The notes under the pieces: generated by a model
Databases searched by the model: none
Seen by the model: the letters and a program-made list of their open reading frames with translations, nothing else
Told to the model about the DNA's origin: nothing
Source: Mogibacterium sp.
Lineage (GTDB): Bacteria; Bacillota; Clostridia; Peptostreptococcales; Anaerovoracaceae
NCBI GenBank assembly: GCA_017512365.1
Contig: JAFWGQ010000056.1
Location: 1 to 39,415 of the forward strand
Length of the DNA stretch: 39,415 nucleotides
Direction: 5' to 3'
Made by a program: the position numbers and the translations under genes
In this document: positions 15,496 through 35,172 of the stretch, in pieces
Numbering within the stretch: the first letter of the stretch is position 1
Layout: every line of letters starts with the position of its first letter

Positions 15496-17937
15496 ATGAA
15501 CGATAACACCATGCCCGGCAATATCGCTGAGAGAAAGCAAGTCAGGCAGTCGCAGAAGGCCTGGAAGTATATCCGGGATGTGAACAACACCTCGCTGAGC
15601 GATCTCAGCCGTATCGCCGTAGAAGACGGTAAAAGGAAATACACCTACGGGCTCATGTTCCGCGAGTGGGAACGTTATGCTTCGGTGTTCACGGCGCTCG
15701 GCATGACGGGCGCGAACTCTTCGCGCGCGGGCCTGCTCGGTTCTACCTGCGCAGAAACCATCTTTTCGTTCTACGCTCTCGACATGACGGGCGCGGAGGT
15801 CTCTCTGATCCCCGCGTACAGCGCGTTCACGCCCGCGCGCATCATGCAGACCATACGCAGCGAAGAGCTGACCGACTTCATCATCACCGATGACTTCGCC
15901 CAGCAGAACCTCATAAACGACCTGCTTGCGAATCAGAAGAAGCTCGGTCTCAGGAACATCATCGTGCTGCACGTGCCGGTCGCGGGCGTCACCGTGAACC
16001 GGGCGCTGAGAGCGATGCAGGAGACCAAGTATGCGTATCTGAAAGCCTTTTACGGTCCGATATGCATGGACACTCTGCTTGATGTATACGGCAGTACTCC
16101 GGTAAGCTACGCGGACGAAAAGAGCAGCGACGCCGCGCTCATACTGCATACCACAGGCACGACGAGCGGCACAGGCAAGCCCGTACCGCTGTCCGACAGC
16201 GCGCTCAACGCTGCCGCCGCCTGCTTCTATGACGGCGCAGGCCTCGAACTGCCGTGGGACGATCTTGTGACATCGGCCATAGTGGACCTCAGCAACGCCT
16301 ACAGCATGATCGATCAGGTGCACGTGCCGTTCGCGATGGGAGCCGCAGTCGTGTGCGTCCCGGGGGGAGTGCTCAATCCGCGGTTCTACAGAGCGATACC
16401 GAAGTACGGCATAAGCTTCCTGTTCACCATAAGCGCGATGTTCGAGCGCTGGATGAAGCTGCCCGAAAAGAAAAGACCGGACTTTTCGAGCCTGCGCTTC
16501 GTGGTGCTCGGAGGGACCTCCGTTTCGGCGGCGGACAAGAGGCGTTACTATGAATTCATGAAAGAGAACGGGGCGAAGGACATCACTCTCCTGAACGGAT
16601 ACGGGATATCCGAGCTCGGCGGAGCCTGCATACTGTCCGGCCCCGACATAGACGACGAATCGATCGGACGGCCGCTGCCTGGGGTGAGCGTGAGGCTGCT
16701 CGACGAGGAAAAGGGAAAGTACCTTTCGGAAAAAGACGCCCCGTGCGACGGAGTCCTCTACCTGCATTCGCCTTCGATCGCCACGCCTGAGCTCGACGGA
16801 AGGGAAGTGATGAAGATCGAAAAGATAGAAGGGAGACCTTACGTCTGCACAAACGACCTTGTAAGGCTGGAGGCAGACGGAAGGCTCACGTTCCTCGGAA
16901 GAGCCAACCGCTACTTCATAAACGACGAGGGCAGGAAGTACGAATCAGGCCGTGTCGAGACCGAGTTTGCGCGTCAGAGCGGCATCGAAAGCTGCGGCGT
17001 GGTGCCGGTGTACGTCAAGACCACGCACGACAACATACCGATGTTATGCGTAAGCATGCTCGACGGGGAAGATGACCCGAAGGAGGTCGTCATCGGGGCG
17101 CTCAGACGTATATTCATAGAGGAAAAGACTCTGAGACCGCATGACGTCCCGAACCGCATAATGATAGCGGAGGAGCTTCCGCGCAACGGCAACGGCAAGA
17201 TCGATCTCTACAGGATAAACAAGGGCGAGGTCGAAGGCGAGACCTTCACCGCGGAGCCCGTGAAAAGGAACGGCGTCCTGACGGATTTCAGACTCGTGCC
17301 ATATGAAGAGGGACCGGCCGACATGATAAAAGAGGTATTCGACGGTATTTCGGCAGAGCTCAGAAGCAGCATGCCTTTCAATAACAGTAATACAAACGGA
17401 AACAAGGAGGAACCTGAAATGAAAAACTTCAACCCTTTCAGCGGCTTCATGGCCATGAACAAGATGGGAATGCAGATGATGCAGAACATGATGAACATGA
17501 TGAGCCAGAACAAGGACTCGGAGCAGTGCAAGGGAATGCCTGACATGTCAAAGATGATGGGCAGCATGCCTGACATGTCCAAAATGATGGGCAGCATGCA
17601 GGAAATGAACAAAAAATTCATGGCGGGCATGCCTGATGTACAGGGCATGGTGCAGAAGCAGGCCGGCGCTATGCTTCCGGGCATGCAGCAGCAGATGAAC
17701 CAGATGATGGAATACATGAGCCAGATGAACAGGATGGGCTATGAGATGATGCAGAAGATGCTGGATCAGCAGACTGCGATGATGAACCAGTTCTTCGAAC
17801 TCGCTGCCGGACTCCAGGCCGCGGGCGGAGCGCCGAAAGCTCCTACCGCCGCAGCTGAAAAACCTGCAAAGGCCGCGGCAGAAAAGCCTGCAAAGGCCGC
17901 CAAAGAGCCTGCGAAGGCCAAAAAGGCAGACAAGTAA
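15496..17937 (+). CDS. Adenylate-forming ligase with methionine-rich C-terminal extension
   Basis: An 813-residue protein. Residues 1-600 form an ANL-type ligase: phosphate loop HTTGTTSGTGKP (218-229), A5 motif GYGISELGG (about 368), A8-like TNDLVRLEADGRLTFLGR and the catalytic Lys in NGNGKIDLYR (about 562-572). It should activate a carboxylate as acyl-AMP, then load CoA or another thiol or amine. From residue 642 an unrelated tail begins: about 37 Met within 130 residues, including a tandem MPDMSKMMGS pair, then an AEKPAKAA Lys/Ala/Pro end. An AAGGAGG and ATG at 17419 in the same frame could also start the tail alone. There is no signal peptide. Substrate unknown. The first of three paralogous ligases in the locus. 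Confidence 0.82.
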   Translation: MNDNTMPGNIAERKQVRQSQKAWKYIRDVNNTSLSDLSRIAVEDGKRKYTYGLMFREWERYASVFTALGMTGANSSRAGLLGSTCAETIFSFYALDMTGAEVSLIPAYSAFTPARIMQTIRSEELTDFIITDDFAQQNLINDLLANQKKLGLRNIIVLHVPVAGVTVNRALRAMQETKYAYLKAFYGPICMDTLLDVYGSTPVSYADEKSSDAALILHTTGTTSGTGKPVPLSDSALNAAAACFYDGAGLELPWDDLVTSAIVDLSNAYSMIDQVHVPFAMGAAVVCVPGGVLNPRFYRAIPKYGISFLFTISAMFERWMKLPEKKRPDFSSLRFVVLGGTSVSAADKRRYYEFMKENGAKDITLLNGYGISELGGACILSGPDIDDESIGRPLPGVSVRLLDEEKGKYLSEKDAPCDGVLYLHSPSIATPELDGREVMKIEKIEGRPYVCTNDLVRLEADGRLTFLGRANRYFINDEGRKYESGRVETEFARQSGIESCGVVPVYVKTTHDNIPMLCVSMLDGEDDPKEVVIGALRRIFIEEKTLRPHDVPNRIMIAEELPRNGNGKIDLYRINKGEVEGETFTAEPVKRNGVLTDFRLVPYEEGPADMIKEVFDGISAELRSSMPFNNSNTNGNKEEPEMKNFNPFSGFMAMNKMGMQMMQNMMNMMSQNKDSEQCKGMPDMSKMMGSMPDMSKMMGSMQEMNKKFMAGMPDVQGMVQKQAGAMLPGMQQQMNQMMEYMSQMNRMGYEMMQKMLDQQTAMMNQFFELAAGLQAAGGAPKAPTAAAEKPAKAAAEKPAKAAKEPAKAKKADK
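17419..17937 (+). CDS. Possible separate Met-rich protein (internal start)
   Basis: MKNFNPFSGFMAMNKMGMQ at 17419, preceded by AAGGAGG with 7-8 bases spacing, would give a free 172-residue protein. A comparable stand-alone Met-rich gene exists behind the second ligase, so a dual product (fused and free) is plausible. Met-x-x-Met-Met runs would form amphipathic helices, comparable in chemistry to the M domain of SRP54, which grips flexible hydrophobic segments. The Lys/Ala/Pro tail is similar in character to phasin and histone-H1-like tails. No homology is claimed. Confidence 0.5.
   Translation: MKNFNPFSGFMAMNKMGMQMMQNMMNMMSQNKDSEQCKGMPDMSKMMGSMPDMSKMMGSMQEMNKKFMAGMPDVQGMVQKQAGAMLPGMQQQMNQMMEYMSQMNRMGYEMMQKMLDQQTAMMNQFFELAAGLQAAGGAPKAPTAAAEKPAKAAAEKPAKAAKEPAKAKKADK
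17536..17595 (+). repeat. 30-base tandem repeat (MPDMSKMMGS twice)
   Basis: Two copies, 17536-17565 and 17566-17595, differing at two third-codon positions, encode the same ten residues. It shows that the Met-rich part grows by duplication under protein-level constraint. Confidence 0.8.
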
Positions 17938-17952
17938 AACGGGACGATCCAC

Positions 17953-19863
17953 ATGGGAGGGACTGGAAGGAAAAAGCTTGAAAAAAGAATAAAAGACGGC
18001 AGCATAAACGAGCAGAGCATATGGAGGTATATCCGCGAGAAGAACAGCGCTGAGCCGTACATGCTCTGCCGCACGGCCGTGATAGACTGCACGAGGGAGT
18101 ATACCTACGGGCAGATGTTCACCGAATGGGAGCATTACGCCCGCGCTTTCTCAGCGCTCGGCATGACAGGAAGCAACGGCTCCAGAGTCGCCGTTGCCGG
18201 CACTGTCTCCGCGGAGCCTCTCTTTTCGTTCTACGGTCTCAACATGACCGGCGCCGAGGTCTCGATGTTCTCATATCCGGACTTCCTGCCGGGAGGCATG
18301 TGGAAGACCATGGCCGAAAAGGAAAGGATCACAGACCTGATCATATCCGACATCATGGTGAGTCCGGATACATGGCCGGACATAAAAAAGACTGCGGATG
18401 AGCTGGGCATGCGCAACGTGATACTCGTGCATTCAAAGCTCGGAGGCCCCAGCACCGGTCCGGCGGAGCTCGTATACAACGAATTCAACTACCACGCCCT
18501 CAGGCGGCTGCCGGATACCGTGTTCATGGATGACATGATCAGAAGATACGCTGCGGCACCGATCTCATACGGCGCGGGAGATCCGGATCACCTCGCCCTG
18601 ATCACGCATACCTCGGGCACTACGAAGGGCACGCGCAAGCCCCTGCCGTATAAAGAGAGGTCCGTCAACACAGTAGCCACAAATTACACCGGCGGATTTC
18701 ACAGCATGCTGTACGGCACGAAGCATACCGGCCAGGTGCGTATTACGCCGAGCTTTGATTTCAGCTCCTTCCTGTGCATGTGCGGAGTTGTCAATGCATA
18801 TTTCTCAGAAGGGCAGACTGTAGTGCTCACGTTCTTCGGATTCATGCACCCGAAATTCGTCAGGGCGGTGGGATATTACGGCATCAACGTGTTGTTTACT
18901 TCCGGCTTCATGATCGACAGCTGGATGGACAGGACGGATACCGGAGATATCGATTTCTCCCCGGTCATAGTATTCGGCTGCGGTGGTTCGTACATGCCGC
19001 CTGACAAAGTCAGGAAGTATACGGAGTTCATAAAGAGCCGGGGCTTCAGGGGCGAGATCATAAGAGGGTACGGTATGTCGGAGACAGGAGGCGCCGAGCT
19101 GTATGTGCCTCCCGGATGCATGGACGACATCCTCGGATATCCTGTCAACGCGGATGACTACCGCATCCTGGACAGCGGGGACGGCCGCTTCTATTCGCCT
19201 GACGAAGGGCCCAGGACAGGAGTCATGTATGCGGCTTCGGATTCGCTGTGCATGAACGAACTCGACAGTGAGACTCTGTTCGAGTTCACTGAGATAGACG
19301 GCAGGGACTTCCTCTGTTCGAACGATCTCGTCAGGGTCAACGGGGACGGGAGCTTATCGTATGCCGGCAGGACTGACAGATACTTTGTAAATAATGACGG
19401 AGTCCGCTTCGAGGCGGGCCTTGTCGAGACGGAAGTATCGAGGCAGCCCGGCATATCCATGTGCGCGGTCGTACCGGTGCTCGACAAACGAATACACGAC
19501 ACCGTTCCGGTGCTGTATGTGACGGCTGATGCCGGAGAGGATGATCCTGCGGAGACCGTCAGGATAGCCCTCAGAAATGTCTTCATCGAAGACGGGCTCA
19601 TGGCGAAGAGCATACTGCCGTCACAGTTCGTGCTCGCGGACGATATCCCGTGCAATTCAAACGGCAAGATAGATATATACAGGATCACAAGGGACAGACT
19701 CAAAGGAGAGGCGTACAATGTCGGCATAGTGAGCGAAGGCGGTGCGGCCGCTGACATAAGCTGTGAACCGGCGGAACGGACCGAAAGCATCAAAGCGGGA
19801 GCCCTCCCTGAGGGAATGGGCGCAGGATCCGCGCTCGGCTTATTCGAGCTCTTCAACAGCTGA
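17953..19863 (+). CDS. Adenylate-forming ligase, paralog 2
   Basis: A 636-residue ligase sharing architecture with its neighbours. It starts with a Lys-rich helix ending RIKDGSINEQSIWRYIRE, which is echoed in ligase 3. The A3 loop is HTSGTTKGTRKP (219-230), A5 GYGMSETGG (about 372), then SNDLVRVNGDGSLSYAGR and A10 NSNGKIDIYR (about 568). All residues needed for adenylation are present. The end, GALPEGMGAGSALGLFELFNS, has a counterpart in ligase 3 (GTLPQGMENNSAYNMFDLL). No good ribosome site precedes the ATG; being 15 bases after the previous stop, it may depend on coupling. A separate Met-rich gene follows, in place of the fused tail of ligase 1. Substrate unknown. Confidence 0.82.
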   Translation: MGGTGRKKLEKRIKDGSINEQSIWRYIREKNSAEPYMLCRTAVIDCTREYTYGQMFTEWEHYARAFSALGMTGSNGSRVAVAGTVSAEPLFSFYGLNMTGAEVSMFSYPDFLPGGMWKTMAEKERITDLIISDIMVSPDTWPDIKKTADELGMRNVILVHSKLGGPSTGPAELVYNEFNYHALRRLPDTVFMDDMIRRYAAAPISYGAGDPDHLALITHTSGTTKGTRKPLPYKERSVNTVATNYTGGFHSMLYGTKHTGQVRITPSFDFSSFLCMCGVVNAYFSEGQTVVLTFFGFMHPKFVRAVGYYGINVLFTSGFMIDSWMDRTDTGDIDFSPVIVFGCGGSYMPPDKVRKYTEFIKSRGFRGEIIRGYGMSETGGAELYVPPGCMDDILGYPVNADDYRILDSGDGRFYSPDEGPRTGVMYAASDSLCMNELDSETLFEFTEIDGRDFLCSNDLVRVNGDGSLSYAGRTDRYFVNNDGVRFEAGLVETEVSRQPGISMCAVVPVLDKRIHDTVPVLYVTADAGEDDPAETVRIALRNVFIEDGLMAKSILPSQFVLADDIPCNSNGKIDIYRITRDRLKGEAYNVGIVSEGGAAADISCEPAERTESIKAGALPEGMGAGSALGLFELFNS

Positions 19864-19913
19864 CCGCCGTGATCCGTTTCAGATAAATCACTAAAACCAA
19901 AGGAGAAGATAGA

Positions 19914-20354
19914 ATGTTTGATTTTTCCAATGACCACAAGAATCCGTTCATGTTCCTGATGGACATGGATGATGAGGATGCTGAAGCCATGGAGCAGTTC
20001 GATTTCGGAGGCTTCGCTGATCCGATGATGTTTATGCAGCAGGCATTCATGATGCAGATGCAGTTTGCCTCTTTCATGTTCATGATGCCTTTCCGGATGA
20101 TGAAGGCCATGGCGGACATGATGAAGGAAGCGGCACCGGACGGCGAAGAGGAAAAGGCCGCCGAAGCTCCGGCCCAGAACGGCATAAAGATCGGCGGCAT
20201 GGACGTGCCTCCGGAGCTTCTCCAGAAGCTGCTGTACATGGACATGAGCCCGGAGAACCTCGAAAAGCTCCAGAAGGCGCTCGACTTTGCATTCAGCATG
20301 GTACCTGACAAGAAAGAGGACAAGGAATCCCGGGAGGTCACAGATGAGCATTGA
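19914..20354 (+). CDS. Methionine-rich small protein
   Basis: A 146-residue protein with AAAGGAG 8 bases before its ATG. The first 62 residues hold about 19 Met, with acidic (DDEDAEAMEQ) and then very hydrophobic Met/Phe stretches (QQAFMMQMQFASFMFMM). The second half is charged and contains a helical segment PPELLQKLLYMD that resembles a small binding domain. No known domain recognised. No signal peptide; the hydrophobic region is not clearly a membrane helix because Met/Gln/Phe alternate. It lies between two ligases, and its end overlaps the next gene by 11 bases. It likely binds the ligase or a lipid-like substrate (inference). Confidence 0.7.
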   Translation: MFDFSNDHKNPFMFLMDMDDEDAEAMEQFDFGGFADPMMFMQQAFMMQMQFASFMFMMPFRMMKAMADMMKEAAPDGEEEKAAEAPAQNGIKIGGMDVPPELLQKLLYMDMSPENLEKLQKALDFAFSMVPDKKEDKESREVTDEH

Positions 20355-23300
20355 CGATATCGGAAATACAGTAAAACGCGAACTGTTCCGTGCGATGATG
20401 GAACGCACACAGAGCATGAACATGATGGACATGATGAATGCTTTCGGCGCGTCGGATCCGGTCATGTACGATGATGTGGAGGAGACACTCAATATCGCTT
20501 ACGTAAACCGCGAAGAGACAGCTCTCGCCATGGATGTATTCAGGCCGGTCGTCCCGAAAGGGACCGAACTCCCTGTGATAGTCATAATCCACGGAGGCGG
20601 GCTCTTCATGGGAGACCGCGGTCTCGAAAGACCGTACAGCCGTCTGCTGGCTCACAAGGGCTATCTGGTGTTCTCTCTCGAGTACAGGCTGGCGCCGAAG
20701 GCCACGATCGGTCAGCAGCTCGATGATGTCTGCGCCGGCATGGATATCGTCGGGAGCATGCTGGTGGACTACGATGTGGATTTCGGACGCATGTTCCTCA
20801 TGGCGGACAGCGCGGGCGCATATCTTGCCTGCTACGTCACGGCCATGCACGAATCCGAGAAACTCCAGAATGTCATCGGCTACAAGCCGTCAAGGATGGT
20901 GTTCGCGGCAGTCGGCTTCATGAGCGGTATGTTCTATACCAACAAGATGCTCGCGGACCAGATATTCGGCGACAAGAGGGATGACAAGAAGTTCCTCAAA
21001 TACATGAACCCGGAGCACCCGGAGATAGTGAAGAACCTGCCTCCGGCGTTCCTTCTGACGAGCTGCGGAGACAGCTTCAACAACTACTCCATCAGGTTCA
21101 ACAGAGCTCTCAAAAAGGCGGGCAGGGTCTCAAAGCTGCTGTACTTCGGAGACGAGGAACTCCAGCATGTCTTCACGATCACGAATCCCGAGCATCCGAG
21201 GAGCATCGAGGCCACCGACAGGATGCTGGCGTGGTTCGAGGAGCAGGCGGACATCAGGAGAAAAAGGCGCAGAAAAGACCCGAAGGTCGAAGCCGCGAAG
21301 AAAAAGGTGCAGGAGCGCATAAAGGACGGCAGCATCACCGACCAGAAGGTGTGGCGTAATCTCAGGGAAAGGATAGCGGCCGATCCGGCGACTCTCGAAA
21401 AGACCGCGGTCATAGACTGCACGCGCGAATACACATACGGGCAGATGCTTGAAGAGTGGGAACGCTATGCAAGAGCCTTCACAGGCCTCGGCATCGGTTA
21501 TGAGAACAAGTCCCGCGTCGCGCTCTGCGGCACCATCACCGCTGAGCCTGTGTTCGCGATATACGGACTCAACATGGTCGGCGCCGAGGTATCGCTGTTC
21601 TCTTATCCGGACTTCCTGCCTCACGGCATGTGGAAGGACATGATCGAAAAGGAAAAGATCACAGACCTCGTTCTCTCCGACATCATCGCGACTCCTGAAG
21701 TGTGGAAGGAGATCCTCGAGATAAAGGAGAAGTGCGGTCTTCGCAACGTCATACTCATGCACTCCCTGATGGGAGGACCGGCGATAGGACCTGCCGAGCT
21801 CGTGCTCAACGAAGCAAATTACCACATGCTGAAGCGCAGGCCTGAGACCGTGTTCATGGATGAACTCATCGAAAAATACAGGAATACGGAGATCCGCTAT
21901 GACGAGACAGTGGGCGAACGCATCGCGTTCATCACGCATACATCAGGCACCACAAAGGGCACGCGCAAGCTCCTGCCGTACACCGACAAGGCGTTCAACG
22001 CCTCGCTCGACGTTGTGCCGGGAGGTCTGCGCAGCTTCGTCAGGGGGGCTGATGACGGAAAGCAGCTCAGGATCATCCAGCTCTTCGACTTCAGCTCCAT
22101 AATGGCGCTGGCCGCTCAGCTCAACGGAGCGTTCATAGCGGGAGAGACGATCGTGCTCACGTTCTTCGGATTCCTGCACCCGAAGTTCATACGGGCGATC
22201 GATTACTATAATATCAGCCTGCTGATCATAACAGGCTTCATGGTCGACAAGTGGATAGACAGGACGGACATCGACGATGTGGACTTCTCATCGCTCAAGG
22301 TCGCAGGCCTGGCAGGCGGATACACATCGCCTGAGAAGCTCGATAAGTACAAAGCCTTCTTCAAAGCGCACGGATTCAAGTATGAGCTCATGTCCGGTTA
22401 CGGGATGTCCGAAGCGGGCGGAAGGCCGCTTGTCACCAAAGCGGATTCAAAGAAGGATGTTATCGGCACCTTCGACGATCCTGACGAGATACGGATCAAA
22501 GACGAGAACGACGGAAAGTTCTACAGATCGGATGAGGGCCCGCGCACCGGGCTTCTGTACAGGATGAACGAAGTGCGGCCCGACAACAAGCTGGACGGAG
22601 AGGTCCTCTACGAATACACGAACATAGACGGCAGGGACTTCCTCTGCACGAACGACCTCGTCCGCGTCAACGAAGACGGAAGCCTCTCGTTCGCCGGCAG
22701 GGCAGACAAGTATTTCGTCAACAACGAAGGACTGAAGTTCGACTCCGGCATAGTGGACAACGAGATGAGCTCCCACGGGGCGATCGACAGATGCGCGGTG
22801 GTGCCTGTCATGGAAAAGAGGATACACGACACTGTTCCCGTGCTCTATGTCATACCTGCCGAGAGAGGCAAGGGCGCGGCCGAAAGGATCAGACAGGCCT
22901 TTGTCGATGTATACGTGAAGGACAGAAAGGTCGGCGCGGACAATCTCCCGACGCAGTTCATGATCGTGGACGACATCCCTCTCAACGCCAACGGCAAACT
23001 GGACATCTACAGGATCACCAGGGAGAGGCTCGAGGGCGACGCCTACAACCTCGTACCGGTGATGACAGACGGAGAGCTTACGGACATAAAGGCCGAGCAT
23101 GTCGAAAAGGTCAACAGCACCACCGCGGGGACGCTGCCTCAGGGCATGGAGAACAACTCCGCGTACAACATGTTCGACCTCCTCACTTCGCCGCCTGCAA
23201 AGAGCGACCGGGACTTCTCGTTCACGGACATCTTCAGACCGTGGAAGCTCTTCATGCCTGAGATGAAAGGAAAGAAGAAGGGCTTCAGCATGCCTGAGAT

Positions 23301-23397
23301 ACCTGAGGATGCGATGAAGATCCTGCTCAAATACGGCAACAGGATCTCGGGGATACCTAACGGACGCAAGTCCATCGACTTCGATTTCGAAGACTGA
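20344..23397 (+). CDS. HSL-type esterase fused to adenylate-forming ligase
   Basis: A 1017-residue protein from ATG 20344 (GGGAGG upstream). The start has its own Met-rich helix, MERTQSMNMMDMMN. Residues 45-310 are an HSL-like alpha/beta hydrolase: HGGG oxyanion hole (about 83), nucleophile Ser in ADSAGAY (about 156) and a likely catalytic His in EELQHVF. After a basic linker (RRKRRRKDPK) the ligase begins (about 320), with HTSGTTKGTRK (532), GYGMSEAGG (685) and NANGKLDIYR (881). The end is Lys-rich and finishes DFDFED. Esterase and acyl-activating enzyme in one chain suggests release and re-activation of the same acid, or quality control of a wrong acyl group. Third paralog of the locus. Confidence 0.83.
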   Translation: MSIDDIGNTVKRELFRAMMERTQSMNMMDMMNAFGASDPVMYDDVEETLNIAYVNREETALAMDVFRPVVPKGTELPVIVIIHGGGLFMGDRGLERPYSRLLAHKGYLVFSLEYRLAPKATIGQQLDDVCAGMDIVGSMLVDYDVDFGRMFLMADSAGAYLACYVTAMHESEKLQNVIGYKPSRMVFAAVGFMSGMFYTNKMLADQIFGDKRDDKKFLKYMNPEHPEIVKNLPPAFLLTSCGDSFNNYSIRFNRALKKAGRVSKLLYFGDEELQHVFTITNPEHPRSIEATDRMLAWFEEQADIRRKRRRKDPKVEAAKKKVQERIKDGSITDQKVWRNLRERIAADPATLEKTAVIDCTREYTYGQMLEEWERYARAFTGLGIGYENKSRVALCGTITAEPVFAIYGLNMVGAEVSLFSYPDFLPHGMWKDMIEKEKITDLVLSDIIATPEVWKEILEIKEKCGLRNVILMHSLMGGPAIGPAELVLNEANYHMLKRRPETVFMDELIEKYRNTEIRYDETVGERIAFITHTSGTTKGTRKLLPYTDKAFNASLDVVPGGLRSFVRGADDGKQLRIIQLFDFSSIMALAAQLNGAFIAGETIVLTFFGFLHPKFIRAIDYYNISLLIITGFMVDKWIDRTDIDDVDFSSLKVAGLAGGYTSPEKLDKYKAFFKAHGFKYELMSGYGMSEAGGRPLVTKADSKKDVIGTFDDPDEIRIKDENDGKFYRSDEGPRTGLLYRMNEVRPDNKLDGEVLYEYTNIDGRDFLCTNDLVRVNEDGSLSFAGRADKYFVNNEGLKFDSGIVDNEMSSHGAIDRCAVVPVMEKRIHDTVPVLYVIPAERGKGAAERIRQAFVDVYVKDRKVGADNLPTQFMIVDDIPLNANGKLDIYRITRERLEGDAYNLVPVMTDGELTDIKAEHVEKVNSTTAGTLPQGMENNSAYNMFDLLTSPPAKSDRDFSFTDIFRPWKLFMPEMKGKKKGFSMPEIPEDAMKILLKYGNRISGIPNGRKSIDFDFED

Positions 23398-23437: not shown

Positions 23438-26032
23438 ATGCTGATGGAAGATAAAGAACTGGAAAAAACAGGAGAACAGAATAAGGATCCGGCACCCAGG
23501 CCCGTAAAGCTCCCTCTGAGGGACCGCGACTCGGAGCCGGCGTTCAACTGGGGCGATACAGAGACTGTTGTATTCACGCCTCAGACAGGGACGCCGGCGA
23601 AAGAGAGGGCGGCAAAGCCTGCGAAGGAGAAGCGGGAAAAGGCGCCTGAGCCTCCGAAGCCGCCAAAGGCAAAGAAGGAAAAGGCGCCTGAGTCTCCGAA
23701 GCCGCCTAAGGCAAAGAAGGAGAAGGCGCCTGAGCCTCCGAAGCCGCCAAAGGCAAAGAAGAAAAAGGCGCCTGAGCCTCCGAAACCGCCGAAGGCAAAG
23801 AAGGAGAAGGCTCCGAAGCCTCCGAAGCCGCCAAAGGCAAAGAAGGAGAAGGCTCCGAAGCCTCCGAAGCCGCCAAAGGCAAAGAAGGAAAAGGCTCCGA
23901 AGCCTCCGAAGGCCGGGCGCGAAAGAAAGCGCAGGGAAGTTACCGGGAAACGGCGCATAGCTGTGATCACAGCTCAGATACTGCTGGGCCTGTTCTTGTG
24001 CGCCGTGGCTGTTTCGGGAGCGTATGTCGCGTATGTAGCGGTCTCTTCGAACGACATAGATCCGCACAATATCTACGCGGCCGTGGATACGAGCACCGTG
24101 CTCTACGATAAGAACGGAGAAGCGATAGACAAGGTGTACTACAGTGAAGACAGGGAGCTCGTGACCATAAACGAGATACCGGAATACACTAAAGATGCCT
24201 TCATAGCGATAGAGGACAAGACCTTCTACGAGCATCACGGCTTCAACCTGCACAGGATGATCGGCGCGGTGATCAACAAGCTCCTCGGAAGGACGGATGC
24301 GATCAGCGGCACTTCGACCATCACGCAGCAGCTTGCCAGGAACGTGTTCCTGCCGGACGTGAAGAGCCAGAGGACGCTGAGGCGAAAGGTGAGCGAGATG
24401 CTCTACGCGAGGCAGATAGAGCGTACGCTCACAAAGGATGAGATACTCGAGGCATACCTCAATACCATATATCTGGGCTACGGCAATTACGGCATAGGCG
24501 CGGCCGCGCGTTCATATTTCGATAAGGACGTGAGAGATCTGACCCTTGCCGAAAGCGCTGCCCTCGCCGCTCTTCCGCAGGCTCCGGACAGTTACGCGCT
24601 CCTGAAGGACGATAAGGAAGAGGGGACGGTATATCTTAAAAAGTACGATGTCTACGCCAACGACGCTTCGAAGGAGCGCAGGGATCTGGTGCTCGACCTG
24701 ATGACTGAACAGGGATACATCTCCAGAGACGAGGCCGCCTCGGCAAGGGTGGACATCAAAGACATCCTCAGACCGCACATAGAGGAAAAGACGAGCGAAT
24801 ACACCTACTTTACCGATTACGTAGTCGGCGAGGTGGCAAAGGATCTGGAAAAGGAATACAAGCTGACGGAGGAAGACGCCCAGAGGATAGTATATACGGG
24901 AGGCCTTCAGATAAAGACGACTGTGGATCCGGAGATCCAGAAGATCATCAATGACGAATTCGCAGATGATTATAATTTCCCGTGGTCGGCCGAAGATCCC
25001 GAAGCGGCCATGGTGGTGACTGAGACGGAAAACGGAAGGATAGCGGCCATGGTCGGAGGACGGAAAAAGAGCGGCAGGAGGCTCTTCAACAGAGCTGTCT
25101 CACCCCGTCAGCCGGGATCGTCGATCAAACCGCTGTCCGTTTACGCGGCGGCTCTTCAGAAGAGCTATGACTACGCCGAAAAAGGAGAACCGTTCCCGTT
25201 CGTAAACTACGGCTTCGACAGACAGGGTACGTATTACTGGGGAGACTACATCACCGCCTCGTCATACGTGGCGGACGAGCAGATGATCGTGAACGGCGAG
25301 GTCTGGCCTCAGAACTTCAGCCGCAGGTTCACCGGCAGGCAGACGTTCAGGTCTGCTCTGCAGCAGTCCCTCAATACATGCGCTGTAAAGATACAGCTGC
25401 AGGTCGGGGCGGATTACTCGATGGACATACTGAAAAAGTTCGGGATCACGACAGCCGTTGATGATCCGGAGAAGCCTGTGAACGACCTCAACTCGGCTGC
25501 GCTCGGTCTGGGCGCAATGACGTACGGCGTCACTCCTCTGGACATGGCGGAGGCCTACGCCGCCTTCCCTAACGGCGGCAAAAGACACGATCCCGTCTGT
25601 TATACCGAAATAACGGATTCGGAAGGAAGGCTCATTCTGCTCAAGAAGTCAGAGCCTGTCAAGGTGATGGATGAAGGCGTCGCGTTCATCATGACCGACT
25701 GCCTCAAGTCCGTCGTGTCGCGCGGCATCGCGAGGAATGCGGGGATCTCCGGCGTACAGGTCGGAGGAAAGACCGGTACTACGAACGATACCGCGGATAT
25801 CTGGTTCTGCGGATTCACGCCTAAGTACTCTTCGGCGCTCTGGATAGGGACCGACCACAATTCCGAGATGAATACCACATCGACGACCGCGGCCTCGCTG
25901 TGGAGCCGCATAATGAGCCGGGTCCCTGACGTGACGGAGGGAGAATACCCGGAAATGCCCGCTGATGTGGTCCTGACGGGCGGAGAATACTACACGATGG
26001 GCACCGAGCCAGGCAATTACCTGAGAAGGTAG
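23438..26032 (+). CDS. Class A penicillin-binding protein (PBP1A-like)
   Basis: An 864-residue bifunctional peptidoglycan synthase. Residues 1-60 are a cytosolic lead, 65-160 a Lys/Pro-rich repeat, and one membrane helix lies at about 172-200 (LLGLFLCAVAVSGAYVAYVAV). The glycosyltransferase domain (GT51) follows with EDKTFYEHHGF, GTSTITQQLARN, RKVSEMLYA and EILEAYLNTIYLG. The transpeptidase domain has SSIK (Ser nucleophile in QPGSSIKPL), SLN and KTG (GGKTGTT). All catalytic motifs are present. The Met start at 23438 has no strong ribosome site and a second Met lies two codons later. The N-terminal tail is unusual and would lie in the cytosol. It is the first envelope gene after the ligase locus. 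Confidence 0.93.
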   Translation: MLMEDKELEKTGEQNKDPAPRPVKLPLRDRDSEPAFNWGDTETVVFTPQTGTPAKERAAKPAKEKREKAPEPPKPPKAKKEKAPESPKPPKAKKEKAPEPPKPPKAKKKKAPEPPKPPKAKKEKAPKPPKPPKAKKEKAPKPPKPPKAKKEKAPKPPKAGRERKRREVTGKRRIAVITAQILLGLFLCAVAVSGAYVAYVAVSSNDIDPHNIYAAVDTSTVLYDKNGEAIDKVYYSEDRELVTINEIPEYTKDAFIAIEDKTFYEHHGFNLHRMIGAVINKLLGRTDAISGTSTITQQLARNVFLPDVKSQRTLRRKVSEMLYARQIERTLTKDEILEAYLNTIYLGYGNYGIGAAARSYFDKDVRDLTLAESAALAALPQAPDSYALLKDDKEEGTVYLKKYDVYANDASKERRDLVLDLMTEQGYISRDEAASARVDIKDILRPHIEEKTSEYTYFTDYVVGEVAKDLEKEYKLTEEDAQRIVYTGGLQIKTTVDPEIQKIINDEFADDYNFPWSAEDPEAAMVVTETENGRIAAMVGGRKKSGRRLFNRAVSPRQPGSSIKPLSVYAAALQKSYDYAEKGEPFPFVNYGFDRQGTYYWGDYITASSYVADEQMIVNGEVWPQNFSRRFTGRQTFRSALQQSLNTCAVKIQLQVGADYSMDILKKFGITTAVDDPEKPVNDLNSAALGLGAMTYGVTPLDMAEAYAAFPNGGKRHDPVCYTEITDSEGRLILLKKSEPVKVMDEGVAFIMTDCLKSVVSRGIARNAGISGVQVGGKTGTTNDTADIWFCGFTPKYSSALWIGTDHNSEMNTTSTTAASLWSRIMSRVPDVTEGEYPEMPADVVLTGGEYYTMGTEPGNYLRR
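23630..23914 (+). repeat. 42-base tandem repeats in the PBP1A tail
   Basis: About six and a half copies of a 14-residue unit, KKEKAPEPPKPPKA with E/K, P/S variants, in the cytosolic tail of the PBP. Copies are close in DNA too, so recent expansion is likely and copy number could vary between strains. A highly basic Pro-rich arm in this place could bind acidic membrane lipids, DNA or a cytosolic partner. Confidence 0.85.
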
Positions 26033-26036
26033 CTCA

Positions 26037-28451
26037 ATGGGACAGGGAAGCAAAATGGGAAACAACAATGACGAACTGATAAGAAAGCTCGCGGCGGAAT
26101 GCACTCTCTTCCTGAAAAAGGACGGGAGCTTCCCTCTCGATAAGCCGTGCAGCGTCGCGCTCTTCGGAAACGGCGCGCGAAATACCGTGCGCGGAGGCAC
26201 GGGGTCCGGCGATGTCTATTCGAAAAAGGTCGTTACGATCGAGGACGGCCTCAGGGCCGCCGGCTTTGACATCACCACGGATTACTGGATGACACGCTGC
26301 GGACAGATCAGGGATAACGCAAGAAAAGAATGGCTGAGCCGGCAGAAAAAGCAGGCAAAGGGGATATCCGGGTTTGCAGGGCTCCTGGGCATGAAGATGC
26401 CCGAGCCGGACTACGAACTCAGCGTCGATTATCCGGGAGACATATGCGTGTATGTGCTCTCCAGGATATCCGGCGAGGGCAGTGACAGAAAGGCCGAACG
26501 GGGCGACATACTGCTCTCGGAGACCGAGGTCAGAGACATCAACGCGCTGAACAGGAAGTTTGACAGGTTCGTTCTGGTCCTCAACACCGGCGGACCGGTC
26601 GATCTCTCCGAAGTATCGGATGCGGGCAACATACTGCAGTTCTCGCAGCTCGGACCTCTGTCCGGTGACATACTCGCGGATATCCTCCTCGGGGAAAGCA
26701 TACCGTCCGGCAAGCTGGCCGCGACATGGACCGACTGGTGCGGATACTGCGGCATAGGCGAGTTCGGCGATCCTGACGACACGCGCTATATCGAAGGCAT
26801 ATACGTCGGCTACAGGTACTTCGACAGCGTCGGAAAAAGGCCGATGTATCCGTTCGGATACGGTCTTACGTTCACGGATTTCACACTCGGCAGGCCGTCT
26901 GTGAAGGTAAAGGGGACGGAGGTCACGCTGAGCCTTACGGTAAAGAACAGCGGCGGATATCCGGGCAGGGAGGTCGTCCAGGTCTACGTCTCGGTCCCTG
27001 AGGGCAGGCTGGATCAGCCATACCAGACGCTTGCGGCGTTCGCCAAGACAGGGATGATAGATGCGGGCGGATCGGAAAGGATCAGCCTCGCATTTGACAT
27101 GAAGGATCTCGCTTCGTACGACGGGGAGACGGCTTCATACATACTCGAGGCCGGAGACTACATAGTTCGCGCAGGAGATTCGAGCGCTGACGCGAAGACG
27201 GCTGCAGTGCTGGAACTGCCTGAGACGGTCACCGTACTTAAGGCGAGGAATGTGCTCGGAGAGTGCGGCTTCAGAGACTGGCGCCCGGAGAGAAAGCTCA
27301 GACCTGAAGCCGGAAGCGCAAAGCGCATCATCATCGACAGCGGTGCATTCACCGAAGAGGCTGTCTGCTATGAGCTTGCTGAAGAGGTCGATCCGTTCGC
27401 TGAGAGCCTGACGGATGAGGAGCTCTGCTATATCGGCACCGGCCACTTCAGAGACAGGCAGTTCAGCATCATCGGCGAGGCAAGCGAAACTGTCGCGGGA
27501 GCCGCCGGAGACTTCACGACGAGGCTCACGGATAAGGGCTTCCCGGCCGTAGTTACCGCGGACGGCCCCGCGGGACTGCGTCTTGAAAGCAGATACTATG
27601 CGGATGAAAAGGGCGAGCACAGCGTCAGCAGAGACTCTGTCGATGAATTCAGCGAGGTCCTGCCTGATCTGCTGTATAGGCTGATCTCAAGACCCCGGAA
27701 GATAAAGCCCGGAACGAAGATATACGAGCAGAACTGCACCATGCTGCCGGCGGCCAGCGCTGTCGCGCAGTCTTTCGACACCTGTCTTGCGGAGAAGCTG
27801 GGCGCTGTCGTGAGTGAAGAGATGGAAAGATACGGCGTGGACTTCTGGCTCGCGCCTGCCCTCAACATACACAGGGACATTCGCTGCGGCCGCAACTTCG
27901 AGTACTACTCGGAGGATCCGCTGGTTTCCGGAAAGATGGCAGCGGCCGTGGTCAGGGGCGTGCAGTCTGCGGAGGGGCGCCATGCGACCATAAAGCACTA
28001 TGCGGCAAATAACCAGGAGACAAACCGCTACAGCAATAATTCACTGGTATCGGAGCGTGCCATGAGGGAAATATACCTCAGGGGTTTCGGGATCTGCATC
28101 AGAGAGTCCCGGCCGGACGCTGTGATGACCTCGTATAATCTGCTCAACGGCGTGCATACCGCGGCGCACCCGGGGCTCATAAGGGATATCCTCAGATGCG
28201 AGTTCGGCTTCAGAGGCATAGTCATGAGCGACTGGATAGTGCGCATGTCCATGGGCGGGGGCAGGTACAGGCTGCCGCTCTCATATGAGGTCGCGGCCGC
28301 GGGCGGCGATGTGCTGATGCCCGGCAGCAGGAGCGACTGGAAAACTCTGCTCAGAGGGCTCAGAAAGGGCAGGGTCAGCCGCAGACAGCTCGAGATAAAC
28401 GCGAGCAGAATGTATTCGTTCGCAAAAGAAAAGGCACAGAGACAGAAATGA
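26037..28451 (+). CDS. Glycoside hydrolase family 3, permuted domain order
   Basis: An 804-residue GH3 protein in which the usual second domain comes first. Residues 80-260 hold the GH3 C-domain, with the acid/base candidate Glu147 in RISGEGSDR and GESIPSGKLAATW. A fibronectin-like domain follows (about 290-375: VKNSGGYPGREVVQVYVSVPE). The (beta/alpha) barrel is last (about 450-780): KHYAANNQETNR, and the nucleophile Asp732 in GIVMSDWIV. No signal peptide, so it is cytosolic and probably acts on imported or recycled glycosides. Either ATG 26037 or 26055 may be used; both have a purine-rich site. The stop overlaps the next gene (ATGA). It is a beta-glucosidase, xylosidase or hexosaminidase; the sugar cannot be told from sequence. 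Confidence 0.9.
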   Translation: MGQGSKMGNNNDELIRKLAAECTLFLKKDGSFPLDKPCSVALFGNGARNTVRGGTGSGDVYSKKVVTIEDGLRAAGFDITTDYWMTRCGQIRDNARKEWLSRQKKQAKGISGFAGLLGMKMPEPDYELSVDYPGDICVYVLSRISGEGSDRKAERGDILLSETEVRDINALNRKFDRFVLVLNTGGPVDLSEVSDAGNILQFSQLGPLSGDILADILLGESIPSGKLAATWTDWCGYCGIGEFGDPDDTRYIEGIYVGYRYFDSVGKRPMYPFGYGLTFTDFTLGRPSVKVKGTEVTLSLTVKNSGGYPGREVVQVYVSVPEGRLDQPYQTLAAFAKTGMIDAGGSERISLAFDMKDLASYDGETASYILEAGDYIVRAGDSSADAKTAAVLELPETVTVLKARNVLGECGFRDWRPERKLRPEAGSAKRIIIDSGAFTEEAVCYELAEEVDPFAESLTDEELCYIGTGHFRDRQFSIIGEASETVAGAAGDFTTRLTDKGFPAVVTADGPAGLRLESRYYADEKGEHSVSRDSVDEFSEVLPDLLYRLISRPRKIKPGTKIYEQNCTMLPAASAVAQSFDTCLAEKLGAVVSEEMERYGVDFWLAPALNIHRDIRCGRNFEYYSEDPLVSGKMAAAVVRGVQSAEGRHATIKHYAANNQETNRYSNNSLVSERAMREIYLRGFGICIRESRPDAVMTSYNLLNGVHTAAHPGLIRDILRCEFGFRGIVMSDWIVRMSMGGGRYRLPLSYEVAAAGGDVLMPGSRSDWKTLLRGLRKGRVSRRQLEINASRMYSFAKEKAQRQK

Positions 28452-34941: not shown

Positions 34942-35172
34942 TGCAAATCCGGTAAAACGCATAGCCGCGCTGTTTATGTGCGCGGCTCTTGTATTTGCGG
35001 CGCTGCCGCAGACGGTTTCGCATGCGGCCGACACGCATGAAAAGGCAGGACGGTGCGAGTGGGATGGTATGAATCGTCCTTCAACACCCTGGACAGCAGC
35101 GGACGGCGCTCGGGCTACGCGTACGAAAACAAGCGCGGGAAGAAGTCCTGCAGTCAGGGAGAGGTAAAATGA
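34922..35172 (+). pseudogene. Wreck of a solute-binding sensor (SBP_bac_3)
   Basis: ATG 34922/34925 with GGAGG starts a signal peptide (AALFMCAALVFAALPQTVSHAA). At about 35052 the frame shifts by one base; in the new frame VRVGWYESSFNTLDSSGRRSGYAYE follows, the unmistakable start of an SBP_bac_3 domain as found in clostridial sensor proteins. Right after that the sequence jumps to KRGKKSCSQGEVK and a stop. A whole sensor protein has thus been reduced to its two ends. It overlaps the SpoIIE gene start-to-stop, and the next histidine kinase uses its last bases as ribosome site. Confidence 0.65.

Follow-up and report, generated by a model that had tools for sequence, protein, structure and literature searches.

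An operon of Mogibacterium sp. joining adenylate-forming ligases to methionine-rich proteins may encode acid-activating enzymes and the scaffold that assembles them

The stretch of DNA analyzed here, referred to as the window, comprises 39,415 nucleotides (nt) of contig JAFWGQ010000056.1 from Mogibacterium sp. (assembly GCA_017512365.1). Its open reading frames (ORFs) and their translations reveal four collinear genes on the plus strand, Lig1, Lig2, MetP, and EstLig3 (Table 1), in which adenylate-forming ligases are accompanied by methionine-rich protein segments. The first 11 nt of EstLig3 also form the end of MetP, and a scan for promoters and terminators returned no more sites than shuffled controls. 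No description of this combination of ligase and methionine-rich protein was found in the titles and beginnings of abstracts covered by a literature search.

Table 1. Genes and features of the operon, in window coordinates (aa, amino acids)
Feature	Position	Strand	Description	Match
Lig1	15496..17937	+	813 aa: ligase (residues ~1-605) joined by a linker to a helical Met-rich tail whose end is rich in Lys/Ala/Pro	Pfam AMP-binding 2.7e-44
Internal ribosome-binding site AAGGAGG in Lig1	17404..17410	+	8 nt 5' of in-frame ATG	
Nested in-frame gene in Lig1	17419..17937	+	putative product: free 172-aa Met-rich scaffold-like protein	
Lig2	17953..19863	+	adenylate-forming ligase, 636 aa	
MetP	19914..20354	+	Met-rich protein of 146 aa encoded separately; C-terminal motif conserved around DMSPENLEKLQKxLDF	
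EstLig3	20344..23397	+	HSL-type esterase fused to ligase; 1017 aa counted from ATG with GGAGG	
EstLig3 N-terminal helix	20344..20457	+	8 Met in 38 residues	
EstLig3 esterase domain	20578..21153	+	residues 79-270	Abhydrolase_3
EstLig3 ligase domain	21394..22998	+	residues 351-885	AMP-binding and AMP-binding_C
EstLig3 C-terminal acidic-aromatic peptide DFDFED and stop	23377..23397	+	common to small protein of second ligase locus	

All three ligases belong to the ANL superfamily by their matches to Pfam AMP-binding (152, 79.9, and 86.8 bits against a cut-off of 29.9) and by their P-loop, GYGxSE, ND, and C-terminal Lys motifs. The shared motifs claimed by an earlier sequence-only reading of this DNA are thereby borne out for the core motifs in every ligase. 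A stricter hinge-motif pattern matches two of the three, Lig2 having a variant. The esterase part of EstLig3 matches Abhydrolase_3 (63.9 bits against a cut-off of 25) and has the HGGG (at 83) and ADSAG (at 154) motifs along with candidate Asp and His residues, as expected of an HSL-type esterase. Since the best NCBIfam scores of the ligases (70 to 89 bits) fall far under the cut-offs of 476 to 705, we consider these proteins an unassigned branch of ANL acyl-CoA synthetases. They have the same domain and motifs as the synthetases PRK06187 and PRK08314 but differ from them in carrying a fused tail or esterase. MetP has no Pfam match at an expect value (E) of 0.1.

Methionine accounts for 37 of the 172 residues of the Lig1 tail and 23 of the 146 residues of MetP, against a background of 3.3%. 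The richest 130 residues of the tail contain 37 Met, exactly as first estimated, while the richest 62 of MetP contain 18 and not the 19 originally counted. Both are far above normal: the maxima among 22 coding sequences of the window (including the Lig1 body, Lig2, and EstLig3) are 12 Met per 130 residues and 9 per 62, both in EstLig3, and binomial probabilities at the background rate of 0.033 are approximately 1e-19 for the tail and 6e-10 for MetP. The sequence-only reading had described methionine-rich matter in three arrangements, of which the fused tail and the separate MetP are strong and the N-terminal helix of EstLig3 is weaker; its 8 Met in 38 residues exceed the maximum of 6 among the other 21 sequences, and the homologous N-termini (seven including the window) contain 3 to 8. 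Methionine is not a constant feature of the tail, since its content across eight tails ranges from 21.5% down to 7% in the most divergent member (11 of 155 residues, locus L019 of genome G013).

The Lig1 linker reads AACAAGGAGGAACCTGAA-ATG, and in seven of eight Lig1 homologues, one of the seven being from another family, GGAGG precedes the ATG of the tail by exactly 8 nt. In a scripted count over 13 coding sequences, GGAGG precedes 10 of 535 internal in-frame ATGs, and six of these 10 mark the start of the tail, one in each of the six Lig1 genes of that set. Among the other internal ATGs the count is 4 of 529, with three on the codons of the esterase HGGG and one at a second ATG in the tail of locus L005. 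The preceding residue varies (K, Q, E, M, or T), yet the third base of its codon is G at each of the seven. With the encoded residues and codon usage taken into account, the chances multiply to 1.5e-4 over the seven loci if these are treated as independent. Judged from these sequences, the tail has its own ribosome-binding and start signal, a point that is new relative to the sequence-only reading, and is probably a gene within a gene, made both fused to the ligase and free.

Separate copies of the tail domain occur in another family of the same class. Both genomes searched from one genus of that family, G1111 and G1166, encode a tailed Lig1 (53% identity for G1111), which was found in 2 of 40 genomes of the family as a whole. 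In G1111 (locus L060), two complete separate tail-domain genes lie 3' of the tailed Lig1 and a third begins at the contig end. In G1166 (locus L063), where Lig1 carries the internal GGAGG signal, four complete tail-domain genes follow. Because profile A2 at E 1e-80 recovered Lig1 itself as the sole match in these two genomes, ligase plus tail looks like the core.

The ratio of nonsynonymous to synonymous substitution rates (dN/dS) was taken from the least saturated pair of loci, L004 and L005, many other pairs being saturated at silent sites. It is 0.107 for the tail and 0.191 for MetP; the remaining coding parts give 0.109 (Lig1 body), 0.149 (Lig2), and 0.105 (EstLig3). The methionine-rich parts are under purifying selection; a dN/dS near 1 was what the sequence-only reading had named as evidence against itself. 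In a tree of 33 ligase domains, the seven tailed Lig1 rows form one clade (100/100), the ligase domains of Lig2 and EstLig3 together form another (100/100), and the ligases of a second locus described below are separate from both at 91/86. Since the tailed ligases form one clade, and Lig2 groups with the ligase domain of EstLig3, a single attachment of the tail explains the data, and the suggestion of repeated independent attachment is not supported.

A search of genome contigs with EstLig3 returned five loci, L004 to L008, in records of uncultured organisms or metagenome-assembled genomes; record names of the RUG and SIG type presumably denote ruminant-gut assemblies. L004 was taken as G008:C20 and L005 as G369:C36, each being counted once. 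Six loci (the window, L004, L005, L006, L007, and L019) are readable from Lig1 through EstLig3, and the four-gene set is complete in five of them: the window, L004, L005, L007, and L019 from G013, where MetP lies 3' of EstLig3 rather than 5'. The short contig of L008 holds MetP and EstLig3 only. With the order of ligase and methionine-rich protein kept in relatives, and ligase plus tail present in a second family, the proposal that the methionine-rich segments are a conserved functional partner or assembly surface is strengthened. The record containing L006 is titled Chloroflexi, and its EstLig3 groups within rows from Bacillota; a mislabel, mis-binning, or transfer is possible. No relative turned up in the one scan made of viral contigs, with A1.

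When 46 flanking ORFs from the six loci, including only 10 flank genes of the window, were compared all against all, four between-locus similarities emerged. A 274-aa hydrolase-type ORF 5' of Lig1 in L005 (764-1588) resembles two ORFs 5' of Lig1 in L019 (30% and 33%), one of which encodes an Abhydrolase_5 protein of hydrolase type (L019:14713-15495, the 30% match). A histidine-kinase-like ORF beside the L007 set resembles the window ORF at 35169 (59% over 372 residues), 12 kb off the operon, and two flavoprotein-type flanking ORFs show 30% over 161 residues. No further flanking gene recurs among the 46. The genes beside the G013 set (L019:660-6724) include an Oxidored_FMN/short-chain-dehydrogenase fusion, a Tocopherol_cycl match, and an aldehyde ferredoxin oxidoreductase, none of which recurs beside the other loci compared. 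These neighbors hint at the reduction of unsaturated or hydrophobic acids in G013.

Further ligases and esterase-ligases, at 34-46% identity, are found in G000:C19, G008:C4, G369:C5, and G025:C10. The second locus in G000 (L050/L051, G000:C19:30698-49102) encodes three ligases, two esterase-ligases, three MFS_2 transporters, a MatE protein, and small Cys/Asp-rich proteins. The small proteins of these second loci have FACDxAPCF-type motifs and acidic runs, and one type has a Lys/Ala/Pro/Glu tail. None of the ORFs listed at the second loci is methionine-rich, the highest Met fraction being 0.07. The sequence-only reading had named ligases that commonly occur without a methionine-rich neighbor as evidence against it, and for the wider family this is what we see, in paralogous ligases of the same genomes. 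The MatE protein (L051:2447-4207, minus strand, 587 aa) has an unusual pairing with a C-terminal histidine-kinase-like ATPase (HATPase_c_2) match.

The two kinds of locus have a C-terminal peptide in common. EstLig3 ends in DFDFED, and one type of second-locus small protein ends in DYDYED. A search of 10 genomes for the DNA pattern encoding D[FY]D[FY]ED and a stop gave seven matches, three at EstLig3 and four at the second-locus small protein. There were none in a reversed control, in three genomes of the genus that lack an EstLig3 match, in G1111, or in G1166, and none in G013, whose EstLig3 ends in DYDYDIED.

A scaffold made both free and fused to an enzyme is the simplest reading of the conserved internal start, the stand-alone copies, and the system-specific C-terminal peptide. 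We give an even chance to the interpretation that the operon encodes both the enzymes of an acid-activating assembly and the protein scaffold for it, with the Lig1 tail produced in the two forms. Going by the enzyme families, the esterase half of EstLig3 would split an ester to release an organic acid, and the adenylation of such acids, presumably towards acyl-CoA, would fall to the ligase half of EstLig3 together with Lig1 and Lig2. The methionine-rich tail would serve as a scaffold domain, helical and ending in a disordered stretch rich in Lys, Ala, and Pro. Ribosomes would probably start at both the Lig1 ATG and the internal ATG at 17419, placing some ligase-scaffold fusions among free subunits. 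Contacts between their methionine-rich helices could let these subunits self-associate, forming a coat or condensate in which the enzymes are held, with MetP as a putative second scaffold subunit and the D[FY]D[FY]ED peptide of EstLig3 as a candidate docking tag.

Partial precedents exist in other systems. CcmM of beta-carboxysomes (M58/M35) is described as a scaffold in fused and free forms (PMC8580825), as proposed for the Lig1 tail, and the mark of a dual-product gene of this type, a conserved internal in-frame start with a strong ribosome-binding site, is found in the same seven of eight Lig1 homologues. Lig1 differs in having a ligase in place of the carbonic-anhydrase-like domain and methionine-rich helices in place of Rubisco small-subunit-like modules, and its short product is predicted from sequence. 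No sequence relation between CcmM and the tail was found, nor was one specifically searched for. The carboxysome partner enzyme CcaA is stated to dock on the scaffold protein by its extreme C-terminal sequence (PMC8580825). The methionine-rich low-complexity region of Pbp1/ataxin-2 is reported to form condensates (PMC8394241); that protein is eukaryotic and redox-sensing, and its likeness to the tail lies in methionine density, with no homology claimed.

Several observations weigh against such an assembly. The internal start signal is missing in L060, one of the eight homologues, and the fourth tail-domain copy of L063 lacks a clear ribosome-binding site at its first ATG. Conditioned on the protein, the chance of GGAGG is only moderate in its improbability (0.04-0.70 per locus), and the product over the seven loci overstates independence, L004 and L005 being close kin. 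L006 has the end of Lig1, MetP, and EstLig3 without Lig2 between them. The AlphaFold model of the tail does have helices at residues 6-30 and 74-134 (blocks up to a predicted local distance difference test score, pLDDT, of 76) and a disordered end, but mean pLDDT is low for both tail (57.5) and MetP (52.1), and the models back helicity only. The hydrophobic moment exceeds the 95% shuffle level in two of six segments, a seventh giving no value, and homology of MetP to the tail is unsupported (hhalign probability 3%). No Pfam, NCBIfam, or PDB match points to a scaffold function and no named family fits the putative scaffold; searching the PDB with profile A5 of the tail returned two hits, both at chance level (E 0.94 and 6.4). 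The set is also rare. EstLig3 was matched in 5 of 47 genomes of the genus (E 1e-80), 5 of 393 in the order sample (E 1e-60), and 1 of 398 in the phylum sample (E 1e-100), and Lig1 in 2 of 391 of the class sample (E 1e-45), one being the window's own; these samples overlap and the thresholds are strict. G025, one of the five, carries esterase-ligases that are 36-41% identical, and the ORFs of its partial loci include no MetP.

The main rival is a phasin-like coat on hydrophobic inclusions of polyester, wax, or other lipid, which the esterase and ligases would mobilize or load. The polyhydroxyalkanoate (PHA) granule resembles the operon in combining phasins (PhaF/PhaI) that have a helical domain and an AAKP-type tail with an acyl-CoA synthetase and an esterase-type enzyme, and ACS1 and PhaZ are placed in its protein layer (PMC5658603). 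The Lig1 tail likewise has helices and a Lys/Ala/Pro end, and the last of the four L063 copies has a long end of AAKP-like repeats, as described for PhaF. Three of seven proteins have matches to Phasin_2 (E 0.04-0.17), but these reach only 12.5-14.6 bits against a cut-off of 24.9, and seven more proteins, taken from G1111 and G1166, yield no match to any phasin family. PHA synthase (PhaC_N) was found in none of the five and none of the two genomes searched, whose assemblies are 75-96% complete, whereas the control was detected in Caulobacter, and membership in a PHA granule was rejected on this ground. WS_DGAT, for wax or lipid bodies, was absent from all 10 genomes, although its control matched nowhere, so this is not decisive. 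The long MetP helix is not amphipathic in the moment test, and on the whole we think a coat of this kind unlikely.

The methionine-rich helices might instead serve as a substrate grip, binding a hydrophobic acid or acyl product and passing it between esterase and ligases without any higher assembly. The M domain of SRP54 has a methionine-lined groove, and methionine-dense helices fused or adjacent to an esterase and ligases would suit such a role. Several free copies beside one ligase, along with a start signal for the free tail, suggest more than one subunit per enzyme, and a tail as poor in methionine as that of G013 also speaks against a grip, which we consider quite improbable. Another reading is that the tail is a functionless low-complexity expansion and the internal GGAGG a by-product of an EE-rich linker. 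The MPDMSKMMG unit does vary in number, with two in the window tail and four plus a variant fifth in L004 (L004:4951-5592), and GGAGG is not improbable at single loci. The low dN/dS of 0.11-0.19, the identical spacing of seven start signals, and the existence of stand-alone copies make neutrality very unlikely. Binding of soft metals or soaking up of oxidants by the methionines, to which MxxM-type spacing in the MPDMSKMMG repeats would lend itself, has the slightest chance, given few His (0-4) and Cys (0-6) in the eight tails, no metal-handling domain among Pfam matches of the four genes, and the same drop in methionine in G013. Hydroxycinnamate catabolism, considered from the logic of esterase plus ligase, was set aside, with no gene evidence and nothing bearing on it in the literature searched.

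Returning to the scaffolded assembly, a broader version of it is an undescribed enzyme-organizing system with a nested free and fused scaffold, a docking peptide for the esterase-ligase, and a second assembly with Cys/Asp-rich proteins made by the paralogous locus of the same cells, such that two separate acid-activating bodies coexist; this we regard as possible and on balance doubtful. The scaffolded assembly, if true, would be a case outside carboxysomes in which gene nesting yields a scaffold for acyl activation, its domains being fused or free in different species. It would also offer a testable function for strongly methionine-rich bacterial proteins and a C-terminal tag for tracing cargo, a claim limited by the rarity of the system in the samples searched.

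Two genes downstream of the operon in the window have features of their own. Just 3' of it, at 23438-26032, is a gene resembling penicillin-binding proteins (named by eye), its N-terminal segment being repeated and rich in Lys and Pro. The other, at 26037-28451, encodes a GH3-type enzyme with a permuted order, its Glyco_hydro_3_C match lying N-terminal of its Glyco_hydro_3 match.

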